Positions 2,011 to 31,239 of a stretch of 35,857 bases of DNA are shown one piece after another. The stretch spans positions 1 to 35,857 of the IMG/VR virus record IMGVR_UViG_3300031612_000028. One strand, given 5' to 3'. Source of the DNA: a virus. Positions within the stretch are counted from its first letter, which is position 1; every line of letters begins with the position of its first letter. Under the pieces are notes generated by a model. The model saw nothing but the letters and a program-made list of their open reading frames with translations. It had not been told where the DNA came from and made no database searches. The position numbers were made by a program, and so were the translations under genes.

Positions 2011-4167
2011 ATGAAATTATACCATCCGTTCTCGGAACAGATTGTCGATATTCTAGTTAAGAAAGTTAACAATGATAATCGGCATTTCTTTCGTATTCTA
2101 GTGGGATATTACTTATCTAAAGTAGCCTCTATGATGCGATGCAATATACAGACTAATGACAGAGATGTAGTCCCTGTTAATACATATGTAATTAACTTGA
2201 TGGTATCAGGCACAGGTAAAGGGCACTCTACTAATATTATGGAGAGGGAGTTCGTAGCCTTCTTTAAGAAGGAATTCCTGAATACTGTATTCCCTCGTAA
2301 AGCTGAGGAGAATATTGAAAACCTAGCTCAAGAGAAAGCCACTTCAAGATGTTCGACTGGCCAATCATTACTCTCATTTCCTGAAGAAGTAGTTATCCAG
2401 AAAGATAAATTCAACCAGCAATTTGCTCGCCTAGGAGAACTAGCTTTTAGCTTCGATAGTGGGACTTCACCGGCTGTTAAACAGATGCGTGAAAAGTTAC
2501 TACTAGCCTCAGCAGGTTCTATGAATTTAGAACTAGATGAGATTGGATCTAATATGGCAGCGAATGTAGATGTACTAAATACATTCCTTGAGTTATACGA
2601 CGTTGGCTTAGTTAAGCAAAAGCTTATTAAGAATACGGCGGAGAATATTAGATCTGAAGAGCTGACTGGCGCTACTCCTACTAATCTTATGATGTTTGGT
2701 ACACCTACTAAGTTATTAGATGGTGGAAAAACTGAGGAAGAGTTTAAGACCTTTCTAGAAACTGGTTATGCTCGTAGATTACTATTTGGATATACGATAG
2801 ATAACCATAGGACTAAAGGCGCTACTGCTAAAGAACGCTATGCACAGATGGTGGATACCGGTCTAACTACAGAAATACATAATATTCAGCAGGTATTTGC
2901 TAGCTTTGCTACTAGACCTTTCAATCCTATTCTACAGATGTCCAGAGAGAACTCCATCTATTTGATTGAGTATCAGATCCGCTGTGAAGAGGCAGCTGAT
3001 GAGTTTAAAGATCATATGGCTGTTCATAAAGCTGAGATGATGCATCGTTACTATAAGGCTCTCAAGCTGGCTGGAGCGTATGCATTTGCAGACAACTCGA
3101 TGGAGATCACTCAGTTACATCTAGACTATGCTATTAGCGTAGTTGAAGATTCTGGAGAAGCCTTTCATACCCTTATGCGTAAGCAGGGCCCGTATGAACG
3201 GTTAGCTCACTATCTTGCGGACTGTGATAAAGAGGTTACTCAGCATGAACTGCTTGAAGAACTACCCTTCTACAAAGGCTCAGAGGCACAGCGTAAGGAA
3301 CTAATGACTCTGGCTATGTCCTTTGGTTACAAACACAATATTATTATTAGAAAACGCATGATGGATGATATTGAGTTTTTCACAGGAGAGACTCTTATAG
3401 AGACTGATCTAAATAAATTGACCGTCGGTGTTAGTACAGATATAGCATATCATTATCAAACCGAACATCCTCCATTTGATCAACTCCATAAACTCACTAC
3501 TGCCGAAGGGTATCATTATACTGCGCACGGTTTTGTTAATGGACACCGTAAGTCTGATAATGTTATCACTGGTTTCGATCTACTTGTCTTAGATTGTGAT
3601 GGTGATATTAGTATAGCTACAGCTAAAGTATTGCTGGAAGATTATACGTTTATGATCTCCACTACTAAACGGCATACTGATCAGTTAAATAGATTCAGGC
3701 TAATCCTACCGATTTCCCATAAGCTTAAATTGACTCCACAGGAATATTCTAAATTCATGACTAATGTATTTGAATGGCTTCCATTTCCTGTAGACGAAGC
3801 GGCTAAGGATATAGCTAGGAAGTGGGCAGCTCATCCAGGGCACTATGAATATAATACTGGAAGTATTATTGATGCCACTATGTTTATTCCAGAAACTAAA
3901 AGATCTGATGACACTAAGGCTCAGCTAACAGCTACTGGCGTGGGTAATATCGAGCGTTGGTTTAGAAATCACACGTCGAAAGGAAATAGAGCTACACACC
4001 TTTACAGGTATGGAATGGTATTAGTTGATGCTGGTTTACCATTAGGAGAAATCATAGAAAAGATGGAAGCATTCAATAATTCATTAGATGTGCCACTGCC
4101 TGAAGATCAATTCAGAAAGAGCACTATTACATCAATAAGTAAGGAAGTACAAAAACGAGGAAACTAA
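2011..4167 (+). CDS. Primase: N-terminal DUF3987-like ATPase, C-terminal archaeo-eukaryotic primase fold
   Basis: Probable replicative primase, possibly primase-helicase, 718 aa. The N-terminal half carries a P-loop, SGTGKGHST at 66-74, in a context like DUF3987-type ATPases of phages and mobile elements. The C-terminal half carries the archaeo-eukaryotic primase signature: LVLDCDGD with Asp528 and Asp530 as metal ligands, STTKRH with His555, and NRFRLILP around 560-567. A PriCT-type C-terminal domain follows from about residue 650 (GNRATHLYRYG onward). An N4-like phage has a primase of similar length at this position. The ATPase-first order is opposite to the common primase-then-helicase layout. 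The start lies 1 base after the previous stop without a visible Shine-Dalgarno, so coupling is likely. Whether the ATPase half unwinds DNA is unknown. Confidence 0.8.
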   Translation: MKLYHPFSEQIVDILVKKVNNDNRHFFRILVGYYLSKVASMMRCNIQTNDRDVVPVNTYVINLMVSGTGKGHSTNIMEREFVAFFKKEFLNTVFPRKAEENIENLAQEKATSRCSTGQSLLSFPEEVVIQKDKFNQQFARLGELAFSFDSGTSPAVKQMREKLLLASAGSMNLELDEIGSNMAANVDVLNTFLELYDVGLVKQKLIKNTAENIRSEELTGATPTNLMMFGTPTKLLDGGKTEEEFKTFLETGYARRLLFGYTIDNHRTKGATAKERYAQMVDTGLTTEIHNIQQVFASFATRPFNPILQMSRENSIYLIEYQIRCEEAADEFKDHMAVHKAEMMHRYYKALKLAGAYAFADNSMEITQLHLDYAISVVEDSGEAFHTLMRKQGPYERLAHYLADCDKEVTQHELLEELPFYKGSEAQRKELMTLAMSFGYKHNIIIRKRMMDDIEFFTGETLIETDLNKLTVGVSTDIAYHYQTEHPPFDQLHKLTTAEGYHYTAHGFVNGHRKSDNVITGFDLLVLDCDGDISIATAKVLLEDYTFMISTTKRHTDQLNRFRLILPISHKLKLTPQEYSKFMTNVFEWLPFPVDEAAKDIARKWAAHPGHYEYNTGSIIDATMFIPETKRSDDTKAQLTATGVGNIERWFRNHTSKGNRATHLYRYGMVLVDAGLPLGEIIEKMEAFNNSLDVPLPEDQFRKSTITSISKEVQKRGN

Positions 4168-8472: not shown

Positions 8473-8658
8473 ATGTCAAAGTTATCTGAACGAGGAAAAG
8501 CTGCGTGGGTCACTACTAAAAGCTTATTGTATACCGCTATCGTTCTTGCTTTCATCGTAGCTTGTTTAGTAGGCGGGTTAGCGCTGTTCCCTATATTATT
8601 AATACTTACACTAGGTTTAGCGATATTTGCTTACTTTAAAAATACTAATAAAACTTAA
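8473..8658 (+). CDS. Small membrane protein, 61 aa
   Basis: Two hydrophobic segments (about 17-37, LLYTAIVLAFIVACLVGGLAL, and 39-55) joined by a Phe-Pro turn, with a basic N-terminus and a short polar basic tail, indicate a hairpin inner-membrane protein with both ends inside. CGGAG lies about 10 bases before the ATG. This is the last plus-strand gene of the block and its TAA overlaps the stop of the convergent vRNAP gene. Candidates are a superinfection-exclusion or membrane-modifying protein. The function is not visible. Confidence 0.65.
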   Translation: MSKLSERGKAAWVTTKSLLYTAIVLAFIVACLVGGLALFPILLILTLGLAIFAYFKNTNKT

Positions 8659-11600
8659 CCAAATACATCTTTAAAATACTTAGCAATTAAGTCTGCACCT
8701 GTAACATTATTTGCTTCATCCCATAAGTCATCTAATTGCATTACATTAGGTTTAATATCTCCAGTAACCCAGGCACTATTTAAATTACCTAGTGTAGGTA
8801 TCCCGGTTGCGTACTGTATGGCTGCTGATATACCTACACCTGTAGGACTAGAATGCACTAGCTGCCTAGACGCTCTTTGATTACGTAGGAAATAGGATAA
8901 GAACGACGTGGCTCCTATTGCATCTAAAGCTTCTAGTGCTGGTGCCAATGTTTCATCAAAGAGCACAAGAGCATTAAGAGAATCGTGCATTGCTACTGGG
9001 AAAGGAATATTGCGTACTTGCGTAGCATGTTCAATCATTACATACCTACCTAAGAAGTCTGTCATCTGAACAACTTTCCGAGACAGTTGGTAAGGAGCGC
9101 TTGATTTACTCATAAACATTACAGCTGCCACATCACTAAAGACAGTAGGAACTTTATTTAGATGCTTAGCATACTTTTCTGCTTTAAGCCCTCTTCGTAG
9201 TCGATTAACATACCCATCAATTTGCGCATCATTAATATCTTCTACAATTAATGAGTTTACTCCGGCAAGACTCATACGATGAATTTTGTTATTCTTAATG
9301 CGTATTTCTAAGGCTCTAATTTGAATTGCTTCCGGACTAGTATCAGATAATTTCTTAATAGATTTTCGATGCTTAAGTTTATCACGCTCTTCTGTGTCAT
9401 CACGGTAACGTTTGTATTCTGTATACCCTTCTAAAATCTTATAGGCTGTATACGATAAAGGAATTTTCTTCATCGTTAACTGAGCTATATTTGAATGTAT
9501 GTTATTGATAATTACTTGAGGCATAGCAATAACAATCCTATCTTTACCATACCCTACAATTTCTCTAATCAAGTAATGTATAAATCCAGCAAATCGTTTA
9601 TATTCAATCATATTTTCTGATTGTAAAAACGGCAGTTGTGATGCATCTTTTACTTTATATCCAAATACCTTTTCAATTATATCTAGTCTAACCATAAACT
9701 TTCCATCTACTGCAAACTTATCCATATACTCTCTAACTTGCCGAGGAAGTTTACGATAGCGATCAATGTATGGAGACTTTGGATTTAGGAAATCTATAAA
9801 TAGCTCAGGTTGCGCTAATAATAAATCAGACTGCTCACGTACTAATATCTTTACAGTCTCTATATCACTAGTAATTGTATTAACTCGATCAATATACGAA
9901 GACTGCATATGAGCAAATACATTCTGAATTTCCATATCAGGTTTCAACAACTTCTCTTTAGTAGCAGTACTGATCATTACTCGGTAGTCTGTAATACGAC
10001 GTTGCCCGTCTCTAACTGGTCGTAAGTTAAAGTCACGGTTTCTACGTACTGACTTAGCTCTTAAAGATTCTTCTTTAATAAAGGTTTTTATAGCTTTATT
10101 TATATCTGTAAAAATCGGATGTCCTTCAGGATCTTGAAATTTGGGATCTTTACTAAATATCTCTCGTAAAGTAGTTCCCATATTTTGATGATTAGTCGTG
10201 GACATAATCCCCGAAGCATCAGCCACCTCATGCATATTTCGAGTAATATACAAAGTATCATGAGTTTGATTTACTCCTATAATCTTACCTAATGGCACTG
10301 ACTCACTAAACCCTGCTTTCTTCATATTCTTTTTATCAGCAACTGTACCTGTTTTCATACTGGTCAGATCATCTAATCTTTCAATAATCCAGCCCTTAAA
10401 TAATTGACTACGATTCTCACTAAATAAGTTTACAAGTGATTTATCCTTAAATGCTAAATGACTATCTAGCATATCAATGATTCCATTTTCATCAGGGTTT
10501 TGAGCAAATTCATTTATAGATAACTCACTAACAATTTCCCTTTCTCTACTATCTGTATATTGCAAAGCAGTCAACGTGGCATAGGCATCTAATAATTCAA
10601 TCTGTAGTTCCCGCTGAGTTTCAGTAGTTGCCTGCAGATGCTCGTGTGCTAGCGTATAACTATTCATGTGCCCATTACGTAAGTTCACATTTCTTGTAAC
10701 TATGAACTCACCTAATTCCTCCGCATGCATTAACGCAGGATGATTCGGAGCCAAGTTACCTAATAGTTTTCGAAGTTTTAGTTTTTCTACTGTAATCGAC
10801 CTAGAATTTCCAAATAATTCCGTGATCGCTTTAGTAGATAACCCAACACTAGGAGCACGGAGACTAGACACATCAGTACGCAATAATATATTAGTTAAGG
10901 CAACTCTAGTTTCTACAGGCATTGCATGAACTTGCTTAGCGTTAAGTGATTTCCAAATTCCATCGAACCACTTAATAGTAGACCTTTCTTGCTCTTGTCT
11001 CGCTTTAGATATATTAACTTTAGAATGAAGTAATTGTTCAATTAGAGCTGGAGAAAGTACCCCATTGCCAATTTCACTAGCAATACCTCGTAAAGTTTGA
11101 TTCAGTAATTGATGAACTTTTTGCTGCTCTTGCAATACCTGAGCATTCTCACTTAATATAAAACCCGGCATACCTACTAGACTTCTAGCAATCTTTCTAA
11201 CTCGGCTATCTGTAGGTGAAAACTTTAACTCTTTTCCTTGCTTAGCAATAAATTGTCTTAATTTTTGATCAGAATCATCTAAGAACTTATAAGTTTTATT
11301 ATTGAATTTTTGTAAGCCGCTCTCATGTTTACTTTGAATTGCAACGAGATGCTCTACTACTGTTAGCATCTCGTGAAATGAATCAGTCTTCCCACTTCGA
11401 TGTACGGATTTGTTTAAGATTCTTTCAAAAGCTTGAACGATTAGGTCCAGAACTTTCATTAATTCTCCCATAAGACCGGGATTTCGTACACGGCGCCTAG
11501 TTGTAATATTTGAAAGATAACTAGTTAATGCTCTATTCGTCACCGCAAAAGCTAAGAACTCATCAAGGCGATGTTCTTCGTTATCGTTATTATTGAAGAT

Positions 11601-14600
11601 ATAAAGATATTGAGCCTTTGCTGCTGCAATATCCGCCGCCGATGGATTAGCAATATCCCCTAAAAAGATTCTGTACCCGCCATTACTAGCTATGTCTGCT
11701 TTAACCTGTTGAAATAATCTCTCAACTTTTTTACGCAGCAATGGTGTCTGAGCTAACGCTTTAGATACCATAGCATGCACCATCTCGTGCACATATACTT
11801 CTTGCGGAGACATGCCATTAGCAGAAACAGGTGCAAATCTGCTTACAGATATTCGCATATCCTGTCGTAAAGCTTCGTAATTACCATGTGTAATACTATC
11901 AATTTGCTCAGTACTTAAATGTATATCACCAGCTGCTTTCAATCCTTTAGATAATTCTTTTAGTACTTGAGCTAATATATTAGAATGGGCCGTTTCTGAT
12001 TGAGTATCTGCATAGTAATTACTAGACACAGCTCTCAGCTTATCAAATAGAAGGTTTACTGTACTTGGTGTAATGTCCCCAATCAATCCTGTTACTGGTT
12101 CCGGGTTTTCTCTAGGTATATCAGATAACGATCCAAACGAGTCTTTAATCTTTTTCTTAAGTTCTGTATCAATATTAGGATCTGTGTCAACTACGTTAGT
12201 ATCGCTTTCATCTAAAGCAACTTTAACGGATTCCTCTACCAGATGTTTTTGTTCTTCTACGAAAGTAGTAGAACTTTGCTCAGGCTGTGGTGGGATAAAT
12301 AGCTGTTGACTCTGTAACTTGAGTCCTTCAGTAGAGCCAACAGTATATATTTCATCTCTAGCTTTTTGTACTTCTATATTAACTTCTCTTAAGTCATCTA
12401 CAACATTCGTAATACTTTCTTTCAACGCTTCCTTCGTAATCCGTTTATTACTAAAACCATTTTCCTTTAACCAGCTATTAGCTTCTTCTAATATTTCTGG
12501 ACTACTATCCCCAATCACCTTATCCAGTCGAGCTAAAGTACTTCCAATAACGCTATGTTGTTTATTGAGTCTTAGATGCTCTATTCCATAAAATCGAGAC
12601 GCCTCAACTAATTGTTCCGGACTGGCCATAAAGGCATCATGTAACATGAGCATTAATGGGTCATTCTGAAGAGTCATAGTAAGTGCTGCCGAATCCATAT
12701 TAATGATCTGACGAATCAATGCACTAACACCAGGTAGTGTAAACTCATTCTGAGTACCTGTACTTTCAGCAGTGCCCTGTTTACCGTTACTCTTTTTATA
12801 AGTAAACTGGGATGTTTCTAATGCGTTATTTCCATCCTTTCGATTCTTACGTTTAGAGAGATCAGTAAAGGTTAAACTATCTGATAGTGGGCCACTAGAC
12901 TGTGGAAGCAAATCTCGTAATCCACTTGCGGGATCATTAACTAAATCATCGATTTCTCGTTTAGTTAGTCCTGTCCTAACTCCATTGTAAGTAGCTAATT
13001 TGGCATTGTATGCCCTCTTAAAATTCACTTCAAAAATAGCATGCAATACTTCAACACCTTTGATGACACTTTGTCTAGCAGCATTAGTACCACCTAGCAT
13101 GCCGTTCAAACCAAAATCAAACCTAGGTTTAACTACTCCAGCTATACTCTGCTTTAAGACAGCATCATTAAAATGAAAAGTCTGAGATTGCCCACCAGGC
13201 TTATTAGCTAGTTTTGCTTTAGTAAATAGTGTTAGCAGCTGTGCTCGTGTCCCTGTCTGTGAACTAAACCCACCAAGAAGATCTAAGTTATCTAAGAAAG
13301 GCACTAGCACTTCCTTTTTATACTTAAGCTTCCCTGCAGATCCTTCAGCGCTATTATAGGTATGTTGCATTGCACTTAACTGCGAGTACAGGTCAGCAAT
13401 GATCTCTTTAGCTACTCCTTCAGAAATGCTTTTAGGTTGCCCTCCGTATAGAAAGATCAAGAACGGGTACTTAACAAGATCACGTAAGTTCCCATCTTTC
13501 AAATCTGTAAATAGCTCCATCAAAGCATTATTCTTTTTCTCGTATATCTTTTCAGACTTAGTTAAAGGACCCTCAATATTAATACTATCCGGGTCATGAA
13601 CTACTGATGAGTCTGCGGCGTAAGCACTATTATATTTAGCTGAAGAGAATTTCTTAATTAAAGTTACAAGATCTTCATATACTCCAGGCTTCGTAGGATC
13701 ATGTTTGGTGTCTTCGCCATAATAGGTGCCCCCTTGTCCAAGGACTTTTTTAATATTATTAAATATAGGAAACTGAAGAACATTAATGGCAGCGCCATTA
13801 GAGATACCGTCAATCTCAAGAATTGCATCTGAAGTAAATGACATATTGGCATTGTCCTTGACAGGCATGTATTTTGACAATGCTGTTAATGCATTTAACA
13901 TAGACATGTTACCGCCAAACGTTGCCTTGATAAGCGGAAGTAGTGTAGCTAGCTCTGCAACGCGGCCTTCTTCCTTTATATTAATTATGGCATTCACTGC
14001 GGCTATCACATTTGGATCAGCAATAATCCTATTAAATTCCGTAACTGCTGCTTCAGACCTATTTTTATCTATAGAGAACCCCATATTGGCAGCTACAGAT
14101 AATTGAAATAAGAATATGTTATCAGCTGTGTATTTCTTACTAGCAAAACTACGTAATAGGAATCTACTTACTTTACTATTCTGTGGATTAATTTTCCCCT
14201 GCATCATAATTCGATGCTGAACTTGCAACTTATATCTAAAGAAGAACCTAGTAAGCTTCTTATCCGCTAAAGCCTCCATAATATTTTTAAGTGCATTAGT
14301 CTTATCACTATTAGAAGCGGTCAATCTTGCATGCTCTACTTCATGATCTTCTACAGTTGTAGGGATAACTTCCATAATGCCATTAAGAGTATCTTGATGA
14401 TCTGTATATAGCGCACTAACAGTATCCAATGTCTCAGCAGCAGTCCATATAACCGCTTGCAATGACTTCAGAACTGTTCTTACTTTTTCAGGAACATTAC
14501 CGAATGAGTTATTAATAAACTTAACAACAGTAGGGCTCTTCTCTTGTAATGGGTACTTAGAATCTGTATCTAAATCAGCGCCAATAACTGTAGTTAAGTC

Positions 14601-17600
14601 AGCAATGGCAGCATTGCCTTCTAAACTAATCTTACTATAGTCACTCATCTTGATATGTTTATACTTACGTCCATGAGTAAACGTACGAGTATCGCTATCT
14701 TTATCAACAAACTTCCAAATGTGAGGTGCTTGTATTTGAAAGAATGCCGTAGGATCGTTAGGAATTGCATTAGTTTGCCCTGCTTGCTCAGATGCTGATA
14801 TGTCACCAGTACCTATCTGTAAAGCTCCCAGTCCAAATGCTAATTTCAAATTATCAAAATAAGCTTCTGTATTTACGGCCTTTTTTCCCTCTACTAATTC
14901 ATTAATACTAGCTTCAAGTGGAATCTTTTTAGCAGACATTTTCAATATATTTGCTATATCAATGCCTATTCGTTGAACAACGTCTTGGTAACTATGGCCA
15001 AGTGGGGCCACTCTCTTAGCTCCTAAGAGGTTGTTTCCCATAAGTTGTATTTCTTCATCTGGGGATAAGGTACCATTGCCACCGTACATGAACATCTCTC
15101 GAGACATCTTGCTAGGAAATACTACATTATCTGGAGTCTGATGAACCCAATTCAAAGTACCAATCATCATTCCAAATATGACTTGAGCAGGTAAAACACC
15201 ATCTCGATGCAAAATCGATAAAGTCTCTCCTACAGCAAAGTTACCTTTCTTAGTGTCATTGCCATCAATAGATATCTTTTGATATCTCTTATTATAAGTT
15301 TCAAAGTATGCAGCTAAAATTACAGCTGATTCTTTTTTGGTACCTAGATCAATTAAAGCTTGAACTAAGTTACCGGGCAAAAATGCTGCATCTGGTAATG
15401 CCTGAATACCCTGAGCTGCTTTTATCTCAACTAGATCAGAAAAGGACTTACCAATTACATTTAATTGAAATTCTCTATTGCTATTCTTAACTTGCTCTAA
15501 AGTCTTTCCATCTGCAATAGCTTTAGCAGTAGCCCATATCTCAAAAGCAGCTTCCGTAATCACAGTAGGGAATTTAACTAATGCTTGATCGATAAAACTA
15601 ATAATACCTGTAGAGTTGATATTGGATTTTACTCTGTCACCTACTGGAGTACGTACAGAACTAGAAGCTGCCAAATCCCCCTCAAGCCGAGCTTTCTGTT
15701 CAGCAGATGTTTCACTACCAGGTTCTTCAAAACCTTCACCTGCATCTATTTCTTCAGAAAGCTGGGTGATGCCATCCGATTGGGTGGGTTCAATTGGGTT
15801 CGTAGGAACTTGGGTAGTTGAGGTTTGGGTTTGGCTGGTGGAGTCTCGTCCAGTAGTCCCTCCTTCTGTAGAAACCCCAGTAGTACTCGGAGTAGTTTGA
15901 GTCCCTGATCTAACGTTCGTAGTCTGCTCTTTAGGTGCTGAATCTGTGGCTGGAGACGATCCTTCTGCACTTGCGTTAGATTGAACATTAGGCTCCTTAT
16001 TAGTATTAAAGGCTGTCAATGCTTGTTGAGCTACGTTAAGCGCTTTAGACGCTGCATTCGCTGACGCTACTGCAGCTGAGAGAGTTTTCTGTATGTCAGT
16101 ATTAGGACTAGGTTGTACTGATCTAGAAGCAAGTAGCTTCTCTAAAACCGCTATTGCAGCCTTCTCATCTGTGCCTCCCTCTTCTGCAAAATCTTCTGTT
16201 ATCCCAAAATCTTCTTCACCCCGTTGCTGTGCTTCTTCCGATTCTTGTGCTTCTATTGCTTGCCTTGCTACATCCTGTTCTACAGTCAAAAGTAACTCTT
16301 GTAGAACCGTGTTAGCAAACGCAGGATCATCTATTAACCGTTGTAAATCATTCTCGAAAGGGGCATCCCCATCACGTGTAGTTAATGAATCCGCTCCGGA
16401 ATTAAAAAGAGCATTTTCTTCGGAATCATCAAACTCAAGTTTAGGAGTATACTTAGAAGATTGACTAAGTTCAGCTATCTTAGTTTTAATTCTTTTTAGT
16501 TCCGCTTTTGCTTTAGTTAGCAACCCCTTCTTGTTATCTACATCCTTGGTTAATTTGGTCTGCTCAGCGGTATCTACTTTTTTAGGAACAGGAGTAGATT
16601 CTACAGTTTTCTCTGGTGCAGTATCAATGTCATCCAGAAGATCAAGTTTTCTTGCTTTAAGAAGTGCCAATTCAACTACATCATCAGTATTTGCATCTGT
16701 ATCTGAAACAATTTCCTCAGTAGATATACTTGTCTCCTGTGCAGGCGCAGACGTAGTCGAAGCCGGAACAGGGACAGGAGCATTAGTTTCTAATGTAGCT
16801 TCAGATATACCTTCACTAGTAAGTGGATCTGTTTTTAATTTAATATTACTAGAACTAAACTCATCTAGAGACTCTGTAATTGCAGCATTTTCTAATGTAA
16901 TTTTAGAAGAGTTCTCAGCAAATTGACTATCTTTATATCCTAGAACGACAGTCAATAACTCTTTACTATAATCTACTTCTCTTGACAATGTAGCGATTAG
17001 TGCAGCAGAATTTGATGGGTCAATAGCGTTAATAAAATCGCCATTACTACGTAATTTTATATAGGCAGCCTCATCCATATAGGTTGGTTCAGAATACCTC
17101 ATTACGCGTCCAACACTACCAGTAACCGCGCTACCTTTTACAACGATAACTTGTCCTTTTTTAGAAGGCATATTCAGTGCAGATTTAAATTGAATAAGTT
17201 TCTTTTCAAGGTTAGCAGCATGCACTTCCATAGCGTCTTCAAGAACTTTAACTTGCGGGTCAGCTATACTAGCTTCACTTTCTTCTGTAATTACTTTTAA
17301 GATTGCATCAGCATACGTCTTGAGTCCTGTCCACCTACTAGACATAGTACCCACAGTGACATCAGTGTGCACTTCCCCTAACTCTTTGACCTGATTTGAT
17401 TCCTCTTGACTTAGCAGTTCTTCAGTTTCTTTTACTTTAATTTGTGCTTCAATAAGATCTGTATCTTCTGGAGACACCTCTTTAAGCTTTTCTAGTTCTT
17501 CAGGATTCTGTTCCATAAAACTACGCATATTATCTACTTTAGGCTTCTCTTGAGTTTTTTCACCTTCAGCCTTTCTGAATACGCGCAATGCTTTATCTAA

Positions 17601-19544
17601 TATATCCGTCTGAGGTCCTGTTAATACGCGGTCAATTAATTTACGTAAAGTAGTTCTTTGATCTTCCCGATCAGCAGGGTCCATACCAGCTAAAGTATCT
17701 TTTAATTCTTTATCTGAAATTTCCTGATTAGCTTTACTTTCCTGAGGAGTAGGGGGATTATCTAACTTATCTAATTGAGCTACAACATCAGCGTGTGCTC
17801 TGCGTAACATATCTTTATGAGCAGTAGATTCTTCCGGAGTTAATTCTGTGGCTAACTCTGCAGAGATTAGATCCCGCTCTGCTATATTCTGTAAGGTCTT
17901 TGGATTACCTGCTTCTTCATTAGAATCTTCAGCGGCTTTGATTTCAGCGTTTAATTCATCTAACCTGCTAAGGCCTGCGTTGCCAGCAGGAGTATCTCCT
18001 ACGGTAATTGGGTCATTAGACTCTATCTTCAGCCTTACTTCTTCTAAGAAGTCTTCAGCATCAGCTCTATTCTCCTCAGCTTCTGTTGGTGCAGTAGGTG
18101 ATACAATATTTTTAGCTATTTTAGCTGCAACGTTTGTGGCGTATAGACCTGTTAAACCACCTGGCATACCAATCGCTTCATTGAATGCACTACGTTTCAC
18201 ACTACTAATATCTGGTACTGCTCCACTCTGCCCATATTGATCAGTAATCTCTGTAAGACCGCCAGATACTGCCTCTGAAAGAAAAGCACTTATAGGTTTA
18301 ACTGCAGCTAAATTAAGTATTTTAGCTGGTGTATTAGCTGCGACAGCTGTGGCTACTTTTTTCATCCAAGTAGCTCGACCAGGAAGCATGTCAGCAAGAA
18401 CGCCAGCACTTCCTTTTTCAACAATCATACCCACTGTAGAAGCTATTTTAATTCTATTAACTACCTCAGCCGAGGGATCCTTCTTCTCTCGAAGAGTGTA
18501 TTCTTTAATAGCTTGTTGAGATTTACCTTTAGCTAAAGTCAGCAACGTTCCTAGTTGAGTGACCGGGCCTCCATACGTTAAAGCAACCATAAATAATGTA
18601 CTATCAAAGCCTCTAGCTACATGCGTACCCAAATCATTGGTTACCGCATATATCATAGATTCAAGATCTCCACTATTTTTAGCTACTGTTTTCATAGCTG
18701 CATCAGAAGCAGCTTGCTCTTTTCTATTTACTGGAGTAATCTTTTTAACCCAGTTAATTGCACCACTAATTACTTCAGAATCCTTTACATTTTCTGCAGC
18801 TTCACTATCTAATCTAGTGATAGTCTTGTATTTATCAGTTTTCTGGAATTCTATATCTGTAGGGGTTAGGTCTTTATCTGCTTTAATAATACGGCGATAA
18901 TTCTCGATATCTGTAGGGGAGATATCACTACCTTCTGCAGCAGGTTGACTAAAGCTAGTTAGCTTTCCTTCTTGGTTATCCTCATTAAAACTAATTACTT
19001 TCTCATTTAGAGTAGTTTTTCCTGTAAAGGCTTGAGCGCCCATTTCAAGGACATCTAGTCCTCCATGGAATAGCTGTCCTACTTTATTAATTACTTCATT
19101 ATCAGAAGCTCCTGCAGCGTCTGCAGCTGCATCCGTATCAGTATACGCTTTGAAGCGATTAGCAGTTACTTCATCTAAACCAACATGATTTTTCCCAAAT
19201 CTATCGGTTACTGAAAAAGTACCATTTTCATGTATCGTAGCTCCCTCCGCATTAGTACCTACTACAGGAGATGTACCTAATAAAACACTGGGATTGCTTT
19301 TACTAAAAGACTCAGCACTTAATGCCTCTTCTCCTAAATTAGAAAAAGCACTTGCACCAACCGCATCGTTACCTAATGCATTAAACTTAATACTATCATT
19401 AGCTATGCTGTTCCTAAATGCGCTACTACGAATACTATTTGCTTGGCGAAAAGCGGCTTTAGTTTCAGCAATCTGTGCAGCTTTTACTAATTTAGCGGAG
19501 TCAACTTCTGCTCTTACAGCTAATAGTTTTTCAGTTAAATTCAC
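8655..19544 (-). CDS. Giant virion RNA polymerase (N4 gp50-like vRNAP) with C-terminal zinc metallopeptidase-like domain
   Basis: Predicted single-subunit RNA polymerase packaged in the virion and injected with the DNA to transcribe early genes. Its 3,629 aa is close to the roughly 3,500 aa of the N4 enzyme. Catalytic motifs: T/DxxGR-like QVQHRIMMQG (Arg1778); motif A EIDGISNG (Asp1912); motif B RDLVKYPFLIFLYGG (Arg2021, Lys2025, Tyr2033, as T7 Arg627/Lys631/Tyr639); motif C LMLHDAF (Asp2303). The spacings match those I recall for N4 mini-vRNAP. The first ~480 residues include hydrophobic helices, then a charged, Ser/Thr-rich linker runs to about 1300. After the polymerase, HEMVH at 2586-2590 plus Glu2662 in DEFLAF suggest a zincin domain; the last 900 residues are helical and unassigned. 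Translation begins at GTG with GAGGAA nine bases upstream, five bases after the preceding stop. Confidence 0.93.
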   Translation of the reverse strand: MNLTEKLLAVRAEVDSAKLVKAAQIAETKAAFRQANSIRSSAFRNSIANDSIKFNALGNDAVGASAFSNLGEEALSAESFSKSNPSVLLGTSPVVGTNAEGATIHENGTFSVTDRFGKNHVGLDEVTANRFKAYTDTDAAADAAGASDNEVINKVGQLFHGGLDVLEMGAQAFTGKTTLNEKVISFNEDNQEGKLTSFSQPAAEGSDISPTDIENYRRIIKADKDLTPTDIEFQKTDKYKTITRLDSEAAENVKDSEVISGAINWVKKITPVNRKEQAASDAAMKTVAKNSGDLESMIYAVTNDLGTHVARGFDSTLFMVALTYGGPVTQLGTLLTLAKGKSQQAIKEYTLREKKDPSAEVVNRIKIASTVGMIVEKGSAGVLADMLPGRATWMKKVATAVAANTPAKILNLAAVKPISAFLSEAVSGGLTEITDQYGQSGAVPDISSVKRSAFNEAIGMPGGLTGLYATNVAAKIAKNIVSPTAPTEAEENRADAEDFLEEVRLKIESNDPITVGDTPAGNAGLSRLDELNAEIKAAEDSNEEAGNPKTLQNIAERDLISAELATELTPEESTAHKDMLRRAHADVVAQLDKLDNPPTPQESKANQEISDKELKDTLAGMDPADREDQRTTLRKLIDRVLTGPQTDILDKALRVFRKAEGEKTQEKPKVDNMRSFMEQNPEELEKLKEVSPEDTDLIEAQIKVKETEELLSQEESNQVKELGEVHTDVTVGTMSSRWTGLKTYADAILKVITEESEASIADPQVKVLEDAMEVHAANLEKKLIQFKSALNMPSKKGQVIVVKGSAVTGSVGRVMRYSEPTYMDEAAYIKLRSNGDFINAIDPSNSAALIATLSREVDYSKELLTVVLGYKDSQFAENSSKITLENAAITESLDEFSSSNIKLKTDPLTSEGISEATLETNAPVPVPASTTSAPAQETSISTEEIVSDTDANTDDVVELALLKARKLDLLDDIDTAPEKTVESTPVPKKVDTAEQTKLTKDVDNKKGLLTKAKAELKRIKTKIAELSQSSKYTPKLEFDDSEENALFNSGADSLTTRDGDAPFENDLQRLIDDPAFANTVLQELLLTVEQDVARQAIEAQESEEAQQRGEEDFGITEDFAEEGGTDEKAAIAVLEKLLASRSVQPSPNTDIQKTLSAAVASANAASKALNVAQQALTAFNTNKEPNVQSNASAEGSSPATDSAPKEQTTNVRSGTQTTPSTTGVSTEGGTTGRDSTSQTQTSTTQVPTNPIEPTQSDGITQLSEEIDAGEGFEEPGSETSAEQKARLEGDLAASSSVRTPVGDRVKSNINSTGIISFIDQALVKFPTVITEAAFEIWATAKAIADGKTLEQVKNSNREFQLNVIGKSFSDLVEIKAAQGIQALPDAAFLPGNLVQALIDLGTKKESAVILAAYFETYNKRYQKISIDGNDTKKGNFAVGETLSILHRDGVLPAQVIFGMMIGTLNWVHQTPDNVVFPSKMSREMFMYGGNGTLSPDEEIQLMGNNLLGAKRVAPLGHSYQDVVQRIGIDIANILKMSAKKIPLEASINELVEGKKAVNTEAYFDNLKLAFGLGALQIGTGDISASEQAGQTNAIPNDPTAFFQIQAPHIWKFVDKDSDTRTFTHGRKYKHIKMSDYSKISLEGNAAIADLTTVIGADLDTDSKYPLQEKSPTVVKFINNSFGNVPEKVRTVLKSLQAVIWTAAETLDTVSALYTDHQDTLNGIMEVIPTTVEDHEVEHARLTASNSDKTNALKNIMEALADKKLTRFFFRYKLQVQHRIMMQGKINPQNSKVSRFLLRSFASKKYTADNIFLFQLSVAANMGFSIDKNRSEAAVTEFNRIIADPNVIAAVNAIINIKEEGRVAELATLLPLIKATFGGNMSMLNALTALSKYMPVKDNANMSFTSDAILEIDGISNGAAINVLQFPIFNNIKKVLGQGGTYYGEDTKHDPTKPGVYEDLVTLIKKFSSAKYNSAYAADSSVVHDPDSINIEGPLTKSEKIYEKKNNALMELFTDLKDGNLRDLVKYPFLIFLYGGQPKSISEGVAKEIIADLYSQLSAMQHTYNSAEGSAGKLKYKKEVLVPFLDNLDLLGGFSSQTGTRAQLLTLFTKAKLANKPGGQSQTFHFNDAVLKQSIAGVVKPRFDFGLNGMLGGTNAARQSVIKGVEVLHAIFEVNFKRAYNAKLATYNGVRTGLTKREIDDLVNDPASGLRDLLPQSSGPLSDSLTFTDLSKRKNRKDGNNALETSQFTYKKSNGKQGTAESTGTQNEFTLPGVSALIRQIINMDSAALTMTLQNDPLMLMLHDAFMASPEQLVEASRFYGIEHLRLNKQHSVIGSTLARLDKVIGDSSPEILEEANSWLKENGFSNKRITKEALKESITNVVDDLREVNIEVQKARDEIYTVGSTEGLKLQSQQLFIPPQPEQSSTTFVEEQKHLVEESVKVALDESDTNVVDTDPNIDTELKKKIKDSFGSLSDIPRENPEPVTGLIGDITPSTVNLLFDKLRAVSSNYYADTQSETAHSNILAQVLKELSKGLKAAGDIHLSTEQIDSITHGNYEALRQDMRISVSRFAPVSANGMSPQEVYVHEMVHAMVSKALAQTPLLRKKVERLFQQVKADIASNGGYRIFLGDIANPSAADIAAAKAQYLYIFNNNDNEEHRLDEFLAFAVTNRALTSYLSNITTRRRVRNPGLMGELMKVLDLIVQAFERILNKSVHRSGKTDSFHEMLTVVEHLVAIQSKHESGLQKFNNKTYKFLDDSDQKLRQFIAKQGKELKFSPTDSRVRKIARSLVGMPGFILSENAQVLQEQQKVHQLLNQTLRGIASEIGNGVLSPALIEQLLHSKVNISKARQEQERSTIKWFDGIWKSLNAKQVHAMPVETRVALTNILLRTDVSSLRAPSVGLSTKAITELFGNSRSITVEKLKLRKLLGNLAPNHPALMHAEELGEFIVTRNVNLRNGHMNSYTLAHEHLQATTETQRELQIELLDAYATLTALQYTDSREREIVSELSINEFAQNPDENGIIDMLDSHLAFKDKSLVNLFSENRSQLFKGWIIERLDDLTSMKTGTVADKKNMKKAGFSESVPLGKIIGVNQTHDTLYITRNMHEVADASGIMSTTNHQNMGTTLREIFSKDPKFQDPEGHPIFTDINKAIKTFIKEESLRAKSVRRNRDFNLRPVRDGQRRITDYRVMISTATKEKLLKPDMEIQNVFAHMQSSYIDRVNTITSDIETVKILVREQSDLLLAQPELFIDFLNPKSPYIDRYRKLPRQVREYMDKFAVDGKFMVRLDIIEKVFGYKVKDASQLPFLQSENMIEYKRFAGFIHYLIREIVGYGKDRIVIAMPQVIINNIHSNIAQLTMKKIPLSYTAYKILEGYTEYKRYRDDTEERDKLKHRKSIKKLSDTSPEAIQIRALEIRIKNNKIHRMSLAGVNSLIVEDINDAQIDGYVNRLRRGLKAEKYAKHLNKVPTVFSDVAAVMFMSKSSAPYQLSRKVVQMTDFLGRYVMIEHATQVRNIPFPVAMHDSLNALVLFDETLAPALEALDAIGATSFLSYFLRNQRASRQLVHSSPTGVGISAAIQYATGIPTLGNLNSAWVTGDIKPNVMQLDDLWDEANNVTGADLIAKYFKDVFG

Positions 19545-19549
19545 TAGTA

Positions 19550-21688
19550 TTAGTTCCTCGGAGAGGTGTTCAATACAGGATCGCTATCTAATATATTGAA
19601 TAAGTTTGACCAATTTGTACTTTCATTCACAGGAATACCTCTCCTGTTAGCCGCCTCTATAAGAGTTTGAGGGGGCGTATTACCTGATGGCGACGGTGTT
19701 GCTTGTATATTATCACTAACTTCCTTTGGATTCATAGATTGCTTTTTGTCCTTCTTTCGTACTTCTTTCTCTTCTTTCGTCAATAATGAAAAAGGTAAAC
19801 TAGGAGCTATAGCCGCCATTAACTGATCATTGTCTAGCCGACTTAAACTACCATCTTTAGCTCCAAGAATCGCAGTATACATTGTATACGCTTTACCTGT
19901 TTGAGGAGTTTTAATATCTGCTTTGGTTCTATACCAAGGAAAGTCAACACTACTTCCATTAAATGTTTTAAATACTGCTCTAGCTAATTCAGCTAGTTTT
20001 GTTTCGTCACTACCTACTCTCCCGCCGTATAGTTTATTTACTCTATCTAATGTAGCAGTAACATCGTCAGTAAGGTCCTGATTAGAAATCTGATCAGTTC
20101 CAAATGCATTTGGGTTATCTTTTTGTAACTTCTGAACGATTGCTGCATACGGACCTTGACTTGCAACGGAAGTAGCAAAATCGCTTATTTCTGTCTCAAG
20201 TTTCACTCCTACCTTAGAACGATGTTTGCTAACAGCATTAACGGCTTCTTTTCTTAAAAATGATGCATCTCGTGCTGTACTGTAATTATTAGTACTACTA
20301 ATGATTTCCTGTACTTTAGAGTTTACAGTTTCAGAAGAGGCATGAGGATTGCCTTTAGAAATAGCTCTAGTCAAAGAAGATTCATACCGTTTAAACTCTG
20401 AAAAGGATGGAGAGTTGCCTGCATTAATAGTTAATGGATTTAAACGTAAGGTAGTAAACGGAACTGCTGTCTTACTATAGGTGGTGCTATCCATATCAGC
20501 ATCTGTAAGATTCCGATTCCATATTGGTTGAAACAGGGCTTTTGCACTTTTTAAGGTGACACCAGGTCTTCTTAAATAATTCTTAAATTCTATATCTGTA
20601 GCAGCAGTACGATCACCACCTAGTAATGCTAAGTTAGTTATACTGGTATTTAGTGCTATTTCATTCTCGCTATCTACTATTTCTTTCCGTTTGGTGTTTT
20701 CTAATGTTTCCCTAGTTAACTTAGTTAATGTAGTCTCTGATCCTCGTTTAAAACTTCTATCTAGCCCTTCATCCGAAATAGCTTTAGTAACTCTAGCTGA
20801 TATACCCGCTTCAGAAGCTAAAGGAAATTGCTCTGTTAGCATAGTTGTTAAAGTATTTACTAATTGGGCACGCCCTTTTATTGAGAAATCTGTTTTCCCA
20901 TTAACTTGTGCTAGCACTGTGTTATCTATTACAACTGGAGTCTGATTCAAAGACTTGTCATACTGCTCCTGCACTACAGAACTAGTCCTCCCTTGGGCCC
21001 TCGCTGTATTAAGAATATCTTCCATAATTGCGCCCTGATTTTCTGGCAGAGCACTTTGATACCGCGCAACATCAACTAATGCTAACTGTTTATTAGTTTC
21101 AATAGTTTGTTTATTATCAAGTTCTATCTTTTTTAAATCATTTGAAGTTTCCGCCAGCGTTTGAGCTGCGGTAGCAGCTTTAATCTTTGAGGCAGACTCT
21201 AATAGATTTTGACCAGCGGCATTACTATCACTTAAAGCTTTTTGTACTTTTCTAGTTTCTTCAGCAGTAGCCCTCTGTTCATTCACCTCTCTTTGCCCAA
21301 TGCCATATTCAAATGTATTTGCTAAACGTGCTTCAGCATCTTGTTTTATATCAAATAACTCGTTTGCACGAGTATTAGCATCTACATTAAAATCCTGATT
21401 CTGAGCAGCAGTAATAGCTTCACTAGCCCTACCTACATTTAAGAAATCTCTATCAGCAAGCTGTAGCATTTCATTACGTTGCTGATCATTATCTGCAGCA
21501 TTCAATGTAGCAATAAACGCATCCGTCTCAGTTTGACTTCGATTATCAGCGTATGCTTGAACACTATCCCCAGCATCTTGAAACCCTTGTTTAATGCCAT
21601 CAGTAGCATTAACTAATAAAGCATTAGCCGCTGCATTGCTTGGAGCAACAATATTCTGCCATGTAATAGGTGTACGGGCTCTAGCCAT
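19550..21688 (-). CDS. Putative internal virion / ejection protein, 712 aa
   Basis: A long, predominantly helical, Ala/Asn/Gln/Thr-rich protein without a signal peptide or enzymatic motif that I can see. Heptad-like stretches, for example residues 120-210, suggest coiled coils. The C-terminal ~60 residues are Pro/Ser-rich and basic (KEEKEVRKKDKKQSMNPKE). It lies immediately upstream of the vRNAP gene in the transcript; N4 places gp51, a virion protein, in the same spot. By analogy it may accompany the polymerase inside the capsid or form part of the ejection channel. AGGAG lies about 6 bases before the ATG. The role is inferred from position and composition. Confidence 0.65.
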   Translation of the reverse strand: MARARTPITWQNIVAPSNAAANALLVNATDGIKQGFQDAGDSVQAYADNRSQTETDAFIATLNAADNDQQRNEMLQLADRDFLNVGRASEAITAAQNQDFNVDANTRANELFDIKQDAEARLANTFEYGIGQREVNEQRATAEETRKVQKALSDSNAAGQNLLESASKIKAATAAQTLAETSNDLKKIELDNKQTIETNKQLALVDVARYQSALPENQGAIMEDILNTARAQGRTSSVVQEQYDKSLNQTPVVIDNTVLAQVNGKTDFSIKGRAQLVNTLTTMLTEQFPLASEAGISARVTKAISDEGLDRSFKRGSETTLTKLTRETLENTKRKEIVDSENEIALNTSITNLALLGGDRTAATDIEFKNYLRRPGVTLKSAKALFQPIWNRNLTDADMDSTTYSKTAVPFTTLRLNPLTINAGNSPSFSEFKRYESSLTRAISKGNPHASSETVNSKVQEIISSTNNYSTARDASFLRKEAVNAVSKHRSKVGVKLETEISDFATSVASQGPYAAIVQKLQKDNPNAFGTDQISNQDLTDDVTATLDRVNKLYGGRVGSDETKLAELARAVFKTFNGSSVDFPWYRTKADIKTPQTGKAYTMYTAILGAKDGSLSRLDNDQLMAAIAPSLPFSLLTKEEKEVRKKDKKQSMNPKEVSDNIQATPSPSGNTPPQTLIEAANRRGIPVNESTNWSNLFNILDSDPVLNTSPRN

Positions 21689-21703: not shown

Positions 21704-22165
21704 TTATACAATTAATTTATCTAGCGTGTATCCACCTGTTCTCTTGCCTTTAGATACAAAGTTATTTCTAGCTGTAATATCATTATTAGCTAATTGTCTA
21801 CGTCCAGCAGCTGCTCTTTGAGCCTCAGCAAAGTTCAATCCAAATTGTCTTTTATTTTCCCCGAGCTGATCTCTCGCTATACCTAGATTCTTAAGCTGTG
21901 CAAACCCAGACATTAATCCACCAATACCTTGAATACCCTGACTAAGTACGCCTAGTTTACCCATTGTACTCATTCCCTGGGTAGGAGCACCAAATTGCTG
22001 ACCGCCTTGAGATAAATCGTATTGATTAACTATATCACCATTACCCCACTGAAGTTCATCAGTATTAGGTACAAGACCTTGCATAAACGACCTATTACCA
22101 ATACCTCCACCTCCCATTCGGGGATCTATAGGCGTTCCGCCATATCTATTATCTAATATTGCCAT
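21704..22165 (-). CDS. Putative internal virion protein, 153 aa (N4 gp52-like position)
   Basis: Gly/Gln-rich N-terminal third, then a hydrophobic Gly-rich helix (VLSQGIQGIGGLMSGFAQL, about 73-91) and an amphipathic Arg/Ala/Gln helix (FAEAQRAAAGRRQLANND). This layout of a glycine-rich hydrophobic helix plus a polar helix is common in small internal virion proteins next to ejection genes in podophages. AAGGAG is 9 bases before the ATG. The gene is 15 bases upstream of the 712-aa gene. A membrane-inserting ejection role is plausible but unproven. The 67 bases upstream (22166-22232) hold the ribosome site and a weak TAGTATA/TATGCTA hairpin only. Confidence 0.6.
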   Translation of the reverse strand: MAILDNRYGGTPIDPRMGGGGIGNRSFMQGLVPNTDELQWGNGDIVNQYDLSQGGQQFGAPTQGMSTMGKLGVLSQGIQGIGGLMSGFAQLKNLGIARDQLGENKRQFGLNFAEAQRAAAGRRQLANNDITARNNFVSKGKRTGGYTLDKLIV

Positions 22166-26277: not shown

Positions 26278-27570
26278 TTATACGGCTGCGAGAGCAGTCC
26301 AGATAATACCAAGCCGTTCTGGGCGCAATGCCAAGAAACCATAATACCATTTGATGGAGTAGAATCCTACCTCACCATATGGATCCGTAAGGTCTGCAGT
26401 TTCTTTGCCAGGCCCTTTATGATTAACCGTAAACTTAACGCTCTTACCATCAGTTTGAAAACCGATAGTCGTAAAGGCACCATCACCAACAACCAACATT
26501 GGGTAGATGTCTGCGCCATTATCACCAGTACCTGCAGTATCAGCACTAGCAGCACCGCCATTTTCGTCATATTGCATTTCTGGAACTACAACAATACGAA
26601 ATTGGTCAATAGATCCAATCTCACCATTCATAACATTACCAGCATCAGCATACTTTTCAACAGAGTTGAAAGCAGGCAAGCTATGTAAGTCCGTCATGGC
26701 TTTAAGAATTGGAATCAGCTCAGAGCCAACATACATGACACGACCACCATTAATGGTTTTCGTATCAATCATACGTGAACCGGAAATGATCTTAGTTTGC
26801 TTAGGAGTCTTGTTATTATCCAAAGCAATAGAAAGATTCATTAGATCGGTATAGGTAACTTTTTCATCAACTGTCAACTTAGTAGTTCCGCCCATGTAAT
26901 AAGCAGTACCATTAGCAGTTGCATTGGTAATCAGATCAGATTGAAGCTCAGCTTCTGTGATCTCATTAGCACCAACCAAAGCTTCCTCAGTAATATGAGA
27001 CAGCAATTCAGCATCTGAATCGAAATCCAAAGATTCCTGAGTATACTCAGTGAAGAAACCACGTTTAGACAGATCAGCTTGGATCTGAGTACGCGTAAAA
27101 CCAACTCGGTTAACTCGACCACCATTCTCAGTCAAAGCTGGAATCTTAGAAGTAATCGTACCTGTATCTTTACTAGAACCGTAAAGATTACCACCATTCA
27201 GTCCGACTTCTCCACCAACACCGGCACCAGTAGCAGCAGCGGCTCGGTTAGCATAAGCACTGCCCTGAAGGACACCAGATGCATTCCAACCAGAATATGT
27301 ACCATTTGTGAGAACTGTACCAGCAGCATCTAAGCCCTGATCAGATACGTTGAGTACATCCAACATAGGAACATAAACGTCTTGTTTAATACGTTTACCC
27401 ATATTCTTAGGCATTGCACGTACATCAGCCAAAGGCATGAAATACTGTTTATCCCGTACAGCAATAAGAGCTTTCTTAAAATAATAATCGGTACGTGCTT
27501 GTGCACCGATGTCCGATGCAGTTCCACTTGCGGAACTTAAAGGACCATTGTAAGTGTTTGGATTTGCCAT
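26278..27570 (-). CDS. Major capsid protein, N4 gp56 family
   Basis: Forms the icosahedral head shell. The 430-aa length fits N4 gp56 (about 400 aa), and the sequence has the traits of that family: an N-terminal helix with DYYFKKALIAVRDKQYF, the PLADVRAMPKNMGKRIKQDVY segment early on, a Gly/Ala/Thr-rich insertion at about 75-130, and later conserved-looking stretches such as RVGFTRTQIQADLSKRGFF and the AYYMGGTTKL loop. It lies between the scaffold-like gene (upstream) and small structural genes (downstream). GGAAA precedes the ATG by about 10 bases. A hairpin after the stop fits a highly expressed gene. There is no sign of a cleaved propeptide. Confidence 0.85.
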   Translation of the reverse strand: MANPNTYNGPLSSASGTASDIGAQARTDYYFKKALIAVRDKQYFMPLADVRAMPKNMGKRIKQDVYVPMLDVLNVSDQGLDAAGTVLTNGTYSGWNASGVLQGSAYANRAAAATGAGVGGEVGLNGGNLYGSSKDTGTITSKIPALTENGGRVNRVGFTRTQIQADLSKRGFFTEYTQESLDFDSDAELLSHITEEALVGANEITEAELQSDLITNATANGTAYYMGGTTKLTVDEKVTYTDLMNLSIALDNNKTPKQTKIISGSRMIDTKTINGGRVMYVGSELIPILKAMTDLHSLPAFNSVEKYADAGNVMNGEIGSIDQFRIVVVPEMQYDENGGAASADTAGTGDNGADIYPMLVVGDGAFTTIGFQTDGKSVKFTVNHKGPGKETADLTDPYGEVGFYSIKWYYGFLALRPERLGIIWTALAAV

Positions 27571-29154: not shown

Positions 29155-31239
29155 TTACTGTTTATTTAACGCATCAAATGCTTTATTGTCAAGATTTGAT
29201 AGCCTATCATGCTCTTTACCTTCCATGTTCTGTTCATGTTTCTGATCTGCTGCATCCTGCTCTCGAGCGTTAGAAACCCCTGATTCTTTCTCAAGAAAAT
29301 CAAGATCACTAATATCAGACCCACTATTAAGCCCTCTTGCTTTAGCTTGTTCTGTTTGTGTTTTAGCAGTTTTGAGTCCGATGTCCACTTCATTCTCAGC
29401 GCCTTTAGCATTCTCGTTACGGATTTTAGCTTTCATCATTTCCATTTCAAGTTGATGCATTGCCTCAGCCATTGGATCAGGTTGAGGTTGATACTCTTCA
29501 ATACGCTTAGCTAGATCAGGCATCTTACGCAATTTAGCTATATCAGACAAAACCATATAACTCATTTCCGGCGGCATTGTATTACCCATAGTTTGTAACA
29601 TAAATGCCAGCTCGCTAGCTTTTTGTTCATCAGCCTCAGCTGTTGAGATATTAAGCTTGATATCATATTGTCCTCCTAGATCATTACGATCAATAGAGAT
29701 AAATTCTTCATTAGTAACACGAATGATTTCTTCATCTTCTAAGAACTCTGCATTCATAGAAATGATTTTACGTCCTATTTGAGTTAATCCATTAGAAAAC
29801 CTACGCAGGATACCCAATTCACGCTTAGAAGTAGCATCTAATGCCGATCTAATCCCAGTAGCCGTAGCTCCTAAAGCTTGACCAGAGATGCCATTAGTAA
29901 ATGCTTTAACACCTGTAAGAGCTTCTGCATCATTATTCTGCATCTGCAGTACTTCAATAGCTGAACGTGGAATCTCAGGATATACTTCCATATGAAATGC
30001 TTGCTTTGGATCTACGTTAGCATTAAACTTATAATCTTCCCCGCGTTCATACTTACGAGCATTCGTTACATCAAGAGCATCTTTACGAATACCTTGCTGA
30101 CCGTTAGCACTACGACCAATTACATCAATGATGCCTCTGGTAACAGCGCCTACGATCTTCTGGTTATCTTCAATAAGAGCTGCATCTGGCTCTCCATATA
30201 AATTCTTACGACGAGGCAAATACTGAACTAATACAAATGGCAATTTCTTGTCTGGGTAAGGATTCTCTTCCATCCTAATAAATGTACTTCCTATCCAAGT
30301 AGCTACAAAGGGCTTAAGTTCTTCCGTTCCATCAATGTCCCAGAATCCCCAATACTCTCGAGCAATAACTTTCTTACGAGCTTTATCTTTAAACGTAAAG
30401 TTACTATCATCTGTATTGATCTTATGATCAGGTTCAGACAATACAGACGCACTCTCGAAGTTAATATTATCAAGATTAGTGTATCGACCATCTTTCTTAA
30501 GCTCTGATAGAGAAGTTTCAAAACTATAAATAACAAAGTTAGCCTTATCAATATCACCTTCACAAGTAGGGTCTATAACTAAATTGTTATAATCACATAC
30601 GGTTAATACAGGTTGATTCTTAACTGTGATCTTCTTTTTTACTTTCTTCTCACCAACTTTAACTTCTTCTAGAATAGGTTGTCCAGATTGTGGATCTATA
30701 GCTGGTTGTCCTGTTTGAGGGTCTGGTACCATCTGTTGTTCCATAACAGGCTGGTATACTGTACGCACGGCCTCTTCAAATTCCCAACCAACACGAACAA
30801 CTACAGTACCTTCATCTACATTCGTACGTATATAGTTATCTATAAAGCTTACTTTATCCATTCGACAGTTAAACTGATAATTTAATACCATCCCATTTTG
30901 TTGGGCGGACTTCTTATCTTCAAAAGTCTTAGGAGCTGTATTAAACAAATCATCTGTAGATAAGAAAGGTTCTGATAAAGCAGCGTATCGCCATTCAGCT
31001 TGTTTACGAGCTAACTTAGGTACTAGCTTAGAACGCCCGCGCTTTACACTAATAGTTTGTTCAGCATTAAGGACTCTTAACCACCCATCTATCTCAAGGG
31101 TATGGACTCCATGCGCTACCTGAGCAGACTCAAGGTCTTGCTTAAGATCAGCAAGACTAGGGGGATTTTCCCAATCAACTAAAGTAGAGACGTCAGTTTC
31201 AGTTTTATCTAAGTCATCCTGATCTATAAGATCGCTCAT
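29155..31239 (-). CDS. Portal protein, N4 gp59-like
   Basis: Forms the dodecameric ring through which DNA is packaged and ejected. The 694 aa fits the large portals of N4 and P22 types. Seen in sequence: an acidic N-terminus, a core with IREYWGFWDIDG-like strands, the segment PFVLVQYLPRRKNLYGEPDA near 330-350, then IEDNQKIVGAVTRGIIDVIG and a MQNNDAEALTGVKAFTNGIS stretch typical of the P22/N4 portal stem and wing. A Gln/Lys/Glu-rich C-terminal coiled barrel-like region follows. A short duplication (DPQTGQPAIDPQSGQP, residues 173-188) lies in an early loop. The start has only GTGAG within the preceding gene's end, so translation may be coupled. The portal assignment rests on length, context and these segments. 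Confidence 0.82.
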   Translation of the reverse strand: MSDLIDQDDLDKTETDVSTLVDWENPPSLADLKQDLESAQVAHGVHTLEIDGWLRVLNAEQTISVKRGRSKLVPKLARKQAEWRYAALSEPFLSTDDLFNTAPKTFEDKKSAQQNGMVLNYQFNCRMDKVSFIDNYIRTNVDEGTVVVRVGWEFEEAVRTVYQPVMEQQMVPDPQTGQPAIDPQSGQPILEEVKVGEKKVKKKITVKNQPVLTVCDYNNLVIDPTCEGDIDKANFVIYSFETSLSELKKDGRYTNLDNINFESASVLSEPDHKINTDDSNFTFKDKARKKVIAREYWGFWDIDGTEELKPFVATWIGSTFIRMEENPYPDKKLPFVLVQYLPRRKNLYGEPDAALIEDNQKIVGAVTRGIIDVIGRSANGQQGIRKDALDVTNARKYERGEDYKFNANVDPKQAFHMEVYPEIPRSAIEVLQMQNNDAEALTGVKAFTNGISGQALGATATGIRSALDATSKRELGILRRFSNGLTQIGRKIISMNAEFLEDEEIIRVTNEEFISIDRNDLGGQYDIKLNISTAEADEQKASELAFMLQTMGNTMPPEMSYMVLSDIAKLRKMPDLAKRIEEYQPQPDPMAEAMHQLEMEMMKAKIRNENAKGAENEVDIGLKTAKTQTEQAKARGLNSGSDISDLDFLEKESGVSNAREQDAADQKHEQNMEGKEHDRLSNLDNKAFDALNKQ

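Follow-up and report, generated by a model that had tools for sequence, protein, structure and literature searches.

Evidence for an N4-type virion RNA polymerase in a phage branch apparently without cultured members

The 3,629-residue protein encoded on the minus strand at positions 8655-19544 of the window, i.e. the whole 35,857-nucleotide stretch of viral DNA analysed here (IMG/VR record IMGVR_UViG_3300031612_000028), is almost certainly the virion RNA polymerase (vRNAP) of an uncultured N4-like (Schitoviridae-type) phage. This identity is supported jointly by a family profile, profile–profile alignment, a predicted fold, synteny, and sequence conservation, all of which concur with the single-subunit virion RNA polymerase proposed in an earlier sequence-only reading, and the coordinates and length given there for the open reading frame are correct. 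Since the protein belongs to a branch of a known enzyme family, its identity is in itself ordinary. The GTG start lies 5 bp past the stop of the upstream gene, with a GAGG 11 nt ahead of it, and the protein and its parts are located as follows:

8655..19544, minus strand: virion RNA polymerase gene (N4 gp50 homologue), 3,629 aa, GTG start, matching PHROG 2206
15498..19544, minus strand: N-terminal region, residues 1-1349, with an acidic low-complexity linker ahead of the core
12225..15497, minus strand: single-subunit RNA polymerase core, approximately residues 1350-2440, delimited by hhalign to N4 core residues 1023-2099, a fold search, and a core-only match to PHROG 2206
14211..14225, minus strand: T/DxxGR-equivalent QVQHR (1774-1778) with Arg1778, an arginine kept by all 23 clade members and all 8 schitoviruses compared
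13794..13817, minus strand: motif A, EIDGISNG (1910-1917), with predicted catalytic Asp1912
13440..13484, minus strand: motif B, R2021..K2025..Y2033-G-G, from alignment and conservation
12633..12641, minus strand: motif C, HDA (2302-2304), with predicted catalytic Asp2303; a T7-like HD where N4 has FD
8658..12164, minus strand: C-terminal domain, approximately residues 2461-3629, homologous to the N4 C-terminal domain and including the PHROG 2206 stretch 2495-3297
11775..11789, minus strand: zincin HExxH motif HEMVH (2586-2590), one HExxH being found here in 8/8 schitovirus vRNAPs examined
11547..11567, minus strand: Glu2662 of LDEFLAF, probably the third zinc ligand, with an xEFxA equivalent in all family members examined

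The whole protein matched PHROG 2206, annotated as “virion RNA polymerase” and including N4 gp50 itself, over three stretches (E = 4.8e-162). The earlier description of the protein as otherwise unlabelled is hence not accurate, as this curated vRNAP family matches it once the comparison is made. Because the best-scoring stretch (residues 2495-3297) lay in the C-terminal domain, the polymerase core was searched separately, and on its own matched PHROG 2206 with an E-value of 1.4e-64 and the T7-type RNA polymerase PHROG 414 with an E-value of 1.3e-4. A published screen for vRNAPs (PMC10654107) relied on the motif ExDGxxxG and a length of >2,500 aa, and reported reference vRNAPs of 2,842-3,820 aa; the window protein displays EIDGISNG at residue 1910 and is 3,629 aa long.

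The sequence-only reading had singled out Arg1778, Asp1912, Lys2025, Tyr2033, and Asp2303 as the signature of a polymerase active site. All five are found at these positions in the translation, where KYPFLIFLYGG holds Lys2025 and Tyr2033 and MLHDAFM holds Asp2303, and their spacings are indeed 134, 113, 8, and 270. The N4 mini-vRNAP residues given for comparison (424, 559, 670, 678, and 951, spaced by 135, 111, 8, and 273) agree with the N4 sequence at an offset of 997, and correspond to R1421, D1556, K1667, Y1675, and D1948 in full-length gp50. A single-sequence phmmer search of the protein against the PDB returned no match, and a five-sequence profile retrieved T7 RNA polymerase only (E = 0.33), the alignment falling on the arginine of T/DxxGR. 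A profile–profile comparison was needed, for which we used hhalign between 23 IMG/VR-derived clade cores, including the window protein, and 8 schitovirus cores (N4, VCO139, BUCT194, MS02, PT15-A5, RHph_N38, EcP1, and VLCpiP4b). The two profiles aligned with a probability of 100 and an E-value of 6.6e-46, pairing R1778 with R1421, D1912 with D1556, K2025 with K1667, Y2033 with Y1675, and D2303 with D1948 of N4 gp50, so that the HMM alignment to N4 vRNAP, which had been put forward as a check, recovered all five residues. For N4 motif C, misplaced by MAFFT, the hhalign placement was used. Against a T7/SP6/phiKMV profile, the same clade profile yielded an E-value of 7e-5 and matched four residues (T7 R425, D537, K631, and Y639), with motif C left unaligned, while control comparisons with the non-polymerase C-terminal domain gave an E-value of 0.14. 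Judged from the aligned sequences, the five-residue match to N4 is far beyond what chance would produce. The outcome confirms that a polymerase this divergent is identifiable from motif geometry by itself: identity to cultured vRNAP cores is about 18-24%, and tblastn of the core against cultured phages returned hits at 21-26% identity, the majority of them annotated vRNAPs of schitoviruses.

The catalytic R, D, K, Y, and D are invariant in all 31 sequences (23 clade and 8 schitovirus), in which the equivalents of K437, R440, and E557 are also nearly invariant. The T or D and the G of T/DxxGR are absent from the window protein (QVQHR), and the strong departure from T7 noted earlier is thus real, but not unique to it. 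Across the clade the motif reads Q..[HNLK]R, with Q first and, where read, one of H, N, L, and K in place of the glycine, and the GR pair is likewise missing from the cultured schitoviruses EcP1 (GVNYR) and PT15-A5 (NGRAR). Because these two cultured phages vary at the same positions, the missing T/D and G are compatible with vRNAP membership, and because the change is clade-wide as well, we consider QVQHR a lineage feature rather than a sign of an inactive enzyme. This variation suggests that, within T/DxxGR, the arginine alone is under strict constraint.

An AlphaFold model of residues 1350-2480, built from ten sequences (mean pLDDT 59, pTM 0.45), supports, with moderate model confidence, a single-subunit RNA polymerase fold closest to mini-vRNAP. 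When this model was compared with the PDB, N4 vRNAP structures took all of the first ten places (E = 8e-18 to 2.5e-14), ahead of the T7 and mitochondrial enzymes, and its top matches among viral models were schitovirus vRNAPs. VIA-align to N4 mini-vRNAP gave a Z-score of 17.2 over ~800 residues, with a large overall rmsd of ~13. In the model, Asp2303 of motif C is predicted to sit between two short strands (strand-turn-strand), as in a palm domain. The palm/fingers active site expected from the motifs is thus favoured at the level of the fold, by the top matches and by the strand-turn-strand of motif C, while the geometry of side chains lies beyond a model of this confidence.

Residues 1-1349, ahead of the core, displayed no Pfam or PHROG match; the N-terminal excess over N4, previously estimated at about 350 residues, amounts to 357 (position 1778 vs 1421 for the catalytic arginine). 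The C-terminal domain aligned to schitovirus C-terminal domains with an E-value of 1.6e-72 (hhalign), and shared 22-24% identity with cultured schitovirus vRNAPs over up to 97% of the domain length. From its sequence, this domain carries what would be a complete zincin motif, with the HExxH...xEFxA pattern common to 8/8 cultured vRNAPs examined; the HExxH of N4 was equated by motif pattern only, both MAFFT and hhalign having misplaced it. A zincin motif in the C-terminal half of vRNAPs was already known from Iyer et al. 2017 (PMC5512222). Another candidate zincin motif, HEVEH at residue 1734, was taken as a chance occurrence, since it sits inside the core and the relatives compared lack it. 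AlphaFold modelled the C-terminal domain poorly (pLDDT 48), and the conclusions make no use of that model. Clade members agree more closely in the C-terminal domain (43-54% identity) than in the catalytic core (35-39%), the two regions together spanning window positions 8658-15497.

The genomic neighbourhood follows the N4 layout. To the left of the vRNAP gene, the plus strand encodes an exonuclease, a primase, a Sak4-like protein, a dCMP deaminase, an SSB, and a Holliday resolvase; to the right, the minus strand follows the N4 order from gp51 to gp59, with the gp51-position protein, gp52 and gp53 homologues, structural proteins, major head protein, tape measure, and portal, so that the overall order is primase, SSB, resolvase, then inverted gp50-gp59. 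Among these neighbours are:

19550..21688, minus strand: protein in the N4 gp51 position (putative ejection protein), 712 aa, without any family match and placed from synteny only
21704..22165, minus strand: N4 gp52 homologue (ejection protein), PHROG 2646, E = 6e-6, the PHROG that includes N4 gp52
26278..27570, minus strand: major head protein (N4 gp56 homologue), PHROG 1357, E = 6e-119
29155..31239, minus strand: portal protein (N4 gp59 homologue), PHROG 1216, E = 2e-233

The Schitoviridae hallmark families inside the window, in N4 order, thus comprise the major capsid protein, portal, vRNAP, gp52, gp53, primase, and SSB. TerL, tail, and DNA polymerase genes were not seen in the window, so that the family rank is provisional. 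A short plus-strand gene amid the minus-strand late genes (33057-33494) matched PHROG 2252, “endolysin; inhibits RNA polymerase” (E = 9e-51).

Compared with coliphage N4 vRNAP (gp50; PDB 2PO4, 3C2P, 3C3L, 9PNQ, 9PNR), the window protein shares the architecture of N-terminal domain, core, and C-terminal domain, the catalytic residues, and the C-terminal HExxH, along with gene order and neighbours, but displays only ~18% core identity and the longer N-terminal part, reads QVQHR instead of TRVGR, has HDA instead of FDG in motif C, where it is nearer the HD of T7, and does not conserve the N4 hairpin-contact residues. Its closest cultured relatives are the vRNAPs of Vibrio and other schitoviruses (phi50-12, VCO139, BUCT194, PJN101), at only 22-24% identity. 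Two of these, VCO139 and BUCT194, share the motif C HDA and the zincin HE[LM]VH plus LHEF pattern, but are shorter (3,022 and 3,068 aa) and keep QGR. T7 and mitochondrial RNA polymerases belong to the same superfamily, with the window Arg, motif A Asp, and motif B Lys and Tyr falling on T7 425, 537, 631, and 639, but the window protein is much larger and multi-domain.

By analogy with N4, the vRNAP would be packaged in the phage head and, considering synteny as well, would be ejected into the bacterium together with the gp51- and gp52-like proteins, where it may transcribe the phage early genes. Asp1912 and Asp2303 would then support two-metal catalysis, and Arg1778, Lys2025, and Tyr2033 would position template and nucleotide. 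What sequence, predicted fold, and genomic context show directly is the set of catalytic residues, the class of fold, the order of the domains, and a late-gene order like that of N4. No conserved counterparts of the N4 hairpin-contact residues R119, W129, D901, and R904 are present in the clade, but these residues vary among cultured schitoviruses too, and the phage early region lies outside the window, so that the sequence speaks neither for nor against an N4-style hairpin promoter. When two longer relatives were scanned for hairpins with 3-nt loops, some stretches held more of them than shuffled sequences did, with no promoter-like set shared between the two.

We considered whether the protein could instead be a virion structural or ejection protein whose polymerase core is inactive and whose zincin domain is the functional part, as might be surmised from the replaced GR of T/DxxGR and from a C-terminal domain more conserved within the clade than the core (43-54% vs 35-39%). 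However, the catalytic residues are all invariant in 23 clade members which have diverged to ~35% core identity, and a dead enzyme would not keep them at such divergence, so that we reject this reading as very improbable. Even less credible is a counterpart of N4 RNAPII, the middle-gene RNA polymerase that is not part of the virion: membership of the single-subunit polymerase superfamily would be shared by such an enzyme, but the protein fits gp50 in its size, in its N- and C-terminal domains, in its place within the late operon, and in its match to PHROG 2206, and four relatives with larger contigs encode a separate, single-chain T7-like RNA polymerase of ~590 aa. N4 RNAPII is a two-subunit gp15/gp16 heterodimer. 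The separate polymerases of these relatives are located at:

G001:64761-66110, T7-like RNA polymerase
G002:2587-3909, T7-like RNA polymerase
G006:32180-33472, T7-like RNA polymerase
G007:22235-23710, T7-like RNA polymerase

A maximum-likelihood tree of the cores placed the window protein in a 23-member group apart from the 8 cultured schitoviruses (100/100 support). The most similar sequence in this tree is 38% identical to the window protein, whose position within the group is not resolved, and, the tree being unrooted, the sister relation of the group to cultured vRNAPs is a reading of it. No cultured phage fell in the group in the collection searched, with best cultured identities of 22-24%, and the vRNAP family thus apparently gains a new branch without cultured members, in a group whose phages are known to eject a transcriptase of their own. 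One relative (L101, JAJFHN010000039.1), 51% identical in the C-terminal domain, lies on a contig of 63 kb that binning had assigned to a Hyphomicrobiales MAG, possibly a weak hint of a host, or else a misbinned phage.

On balance, the window protein is probably part of a large, uncultured branch, sister to the known schitovirus vRNAPs, whose ejected polymerase gains further enzymes within a single chain, including one subclade that combines transglycosylase, RNA polymerase, SF1 helicase, and zincin peptidase in 4,900-5,960 aa. Uninterrupted vRNAP frames in the group reach 4,216, 4,509, 4,811, 4,933, 5,001, and 5,963 aa. An SF1 helicase lies between polymerase core and zincin domain in four relatives (L013, L035, L037, and L055, the last 5'-truncated in the sequence read) that form one clade with 100/100 support. 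This domain matched Pfam AAA_30 in the four relatives (E = 1e-16 to 1e-18) and the Dda-like PHROG 325 in L013 (E = 2e-41), with Walker A GRGGTGKT, DEAS, and GDNVQ in 4/4 and a motif VI-like LTRV in 3/4. Three of the four helicase-bearing relatives have an SLT transglycosylase at the N-terminus, and L053 has an N-terminal transglycosylase as well. The window protein, with RNA polymerase and zincin only, has no helicase, transglycosylase, AlkB-like oxygenase, or DUF7831, in contrast to the relatives that add such domains. A close parallel is offered by the polyvalent proteins described by Iyer et al. in 2017 (PMC5512222). The vRNAP-transglycosylase fusion was already known from that article; for a fusion of vRNAP with a helicase we found no earlier report, and the portion of the article searched mentions neither this fusion nor an AlkB-like oxygenase or DUF7831 with a vRNAP.

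The fused helicase of these relatives could open incoming DNA for the polymerase, a step for which N4 relies on the gyrase and SSB of its host, and helicase-fused relatives would make vRNAP access to single-stranded promoters directly testable. Helicase-fused vRNAPs, also designated L013 (IMGVR_UViG_3300034352_000094), L099, L100, and L055, span 4,933-5,963 aa where complete. In another relative (L012), with a vRNAP of 4,811 aa, residues ~1340-1910 hold DUF7831 and an AlkB-like 2OG-Fe(II) oxygenase between N-terminal domain and core.
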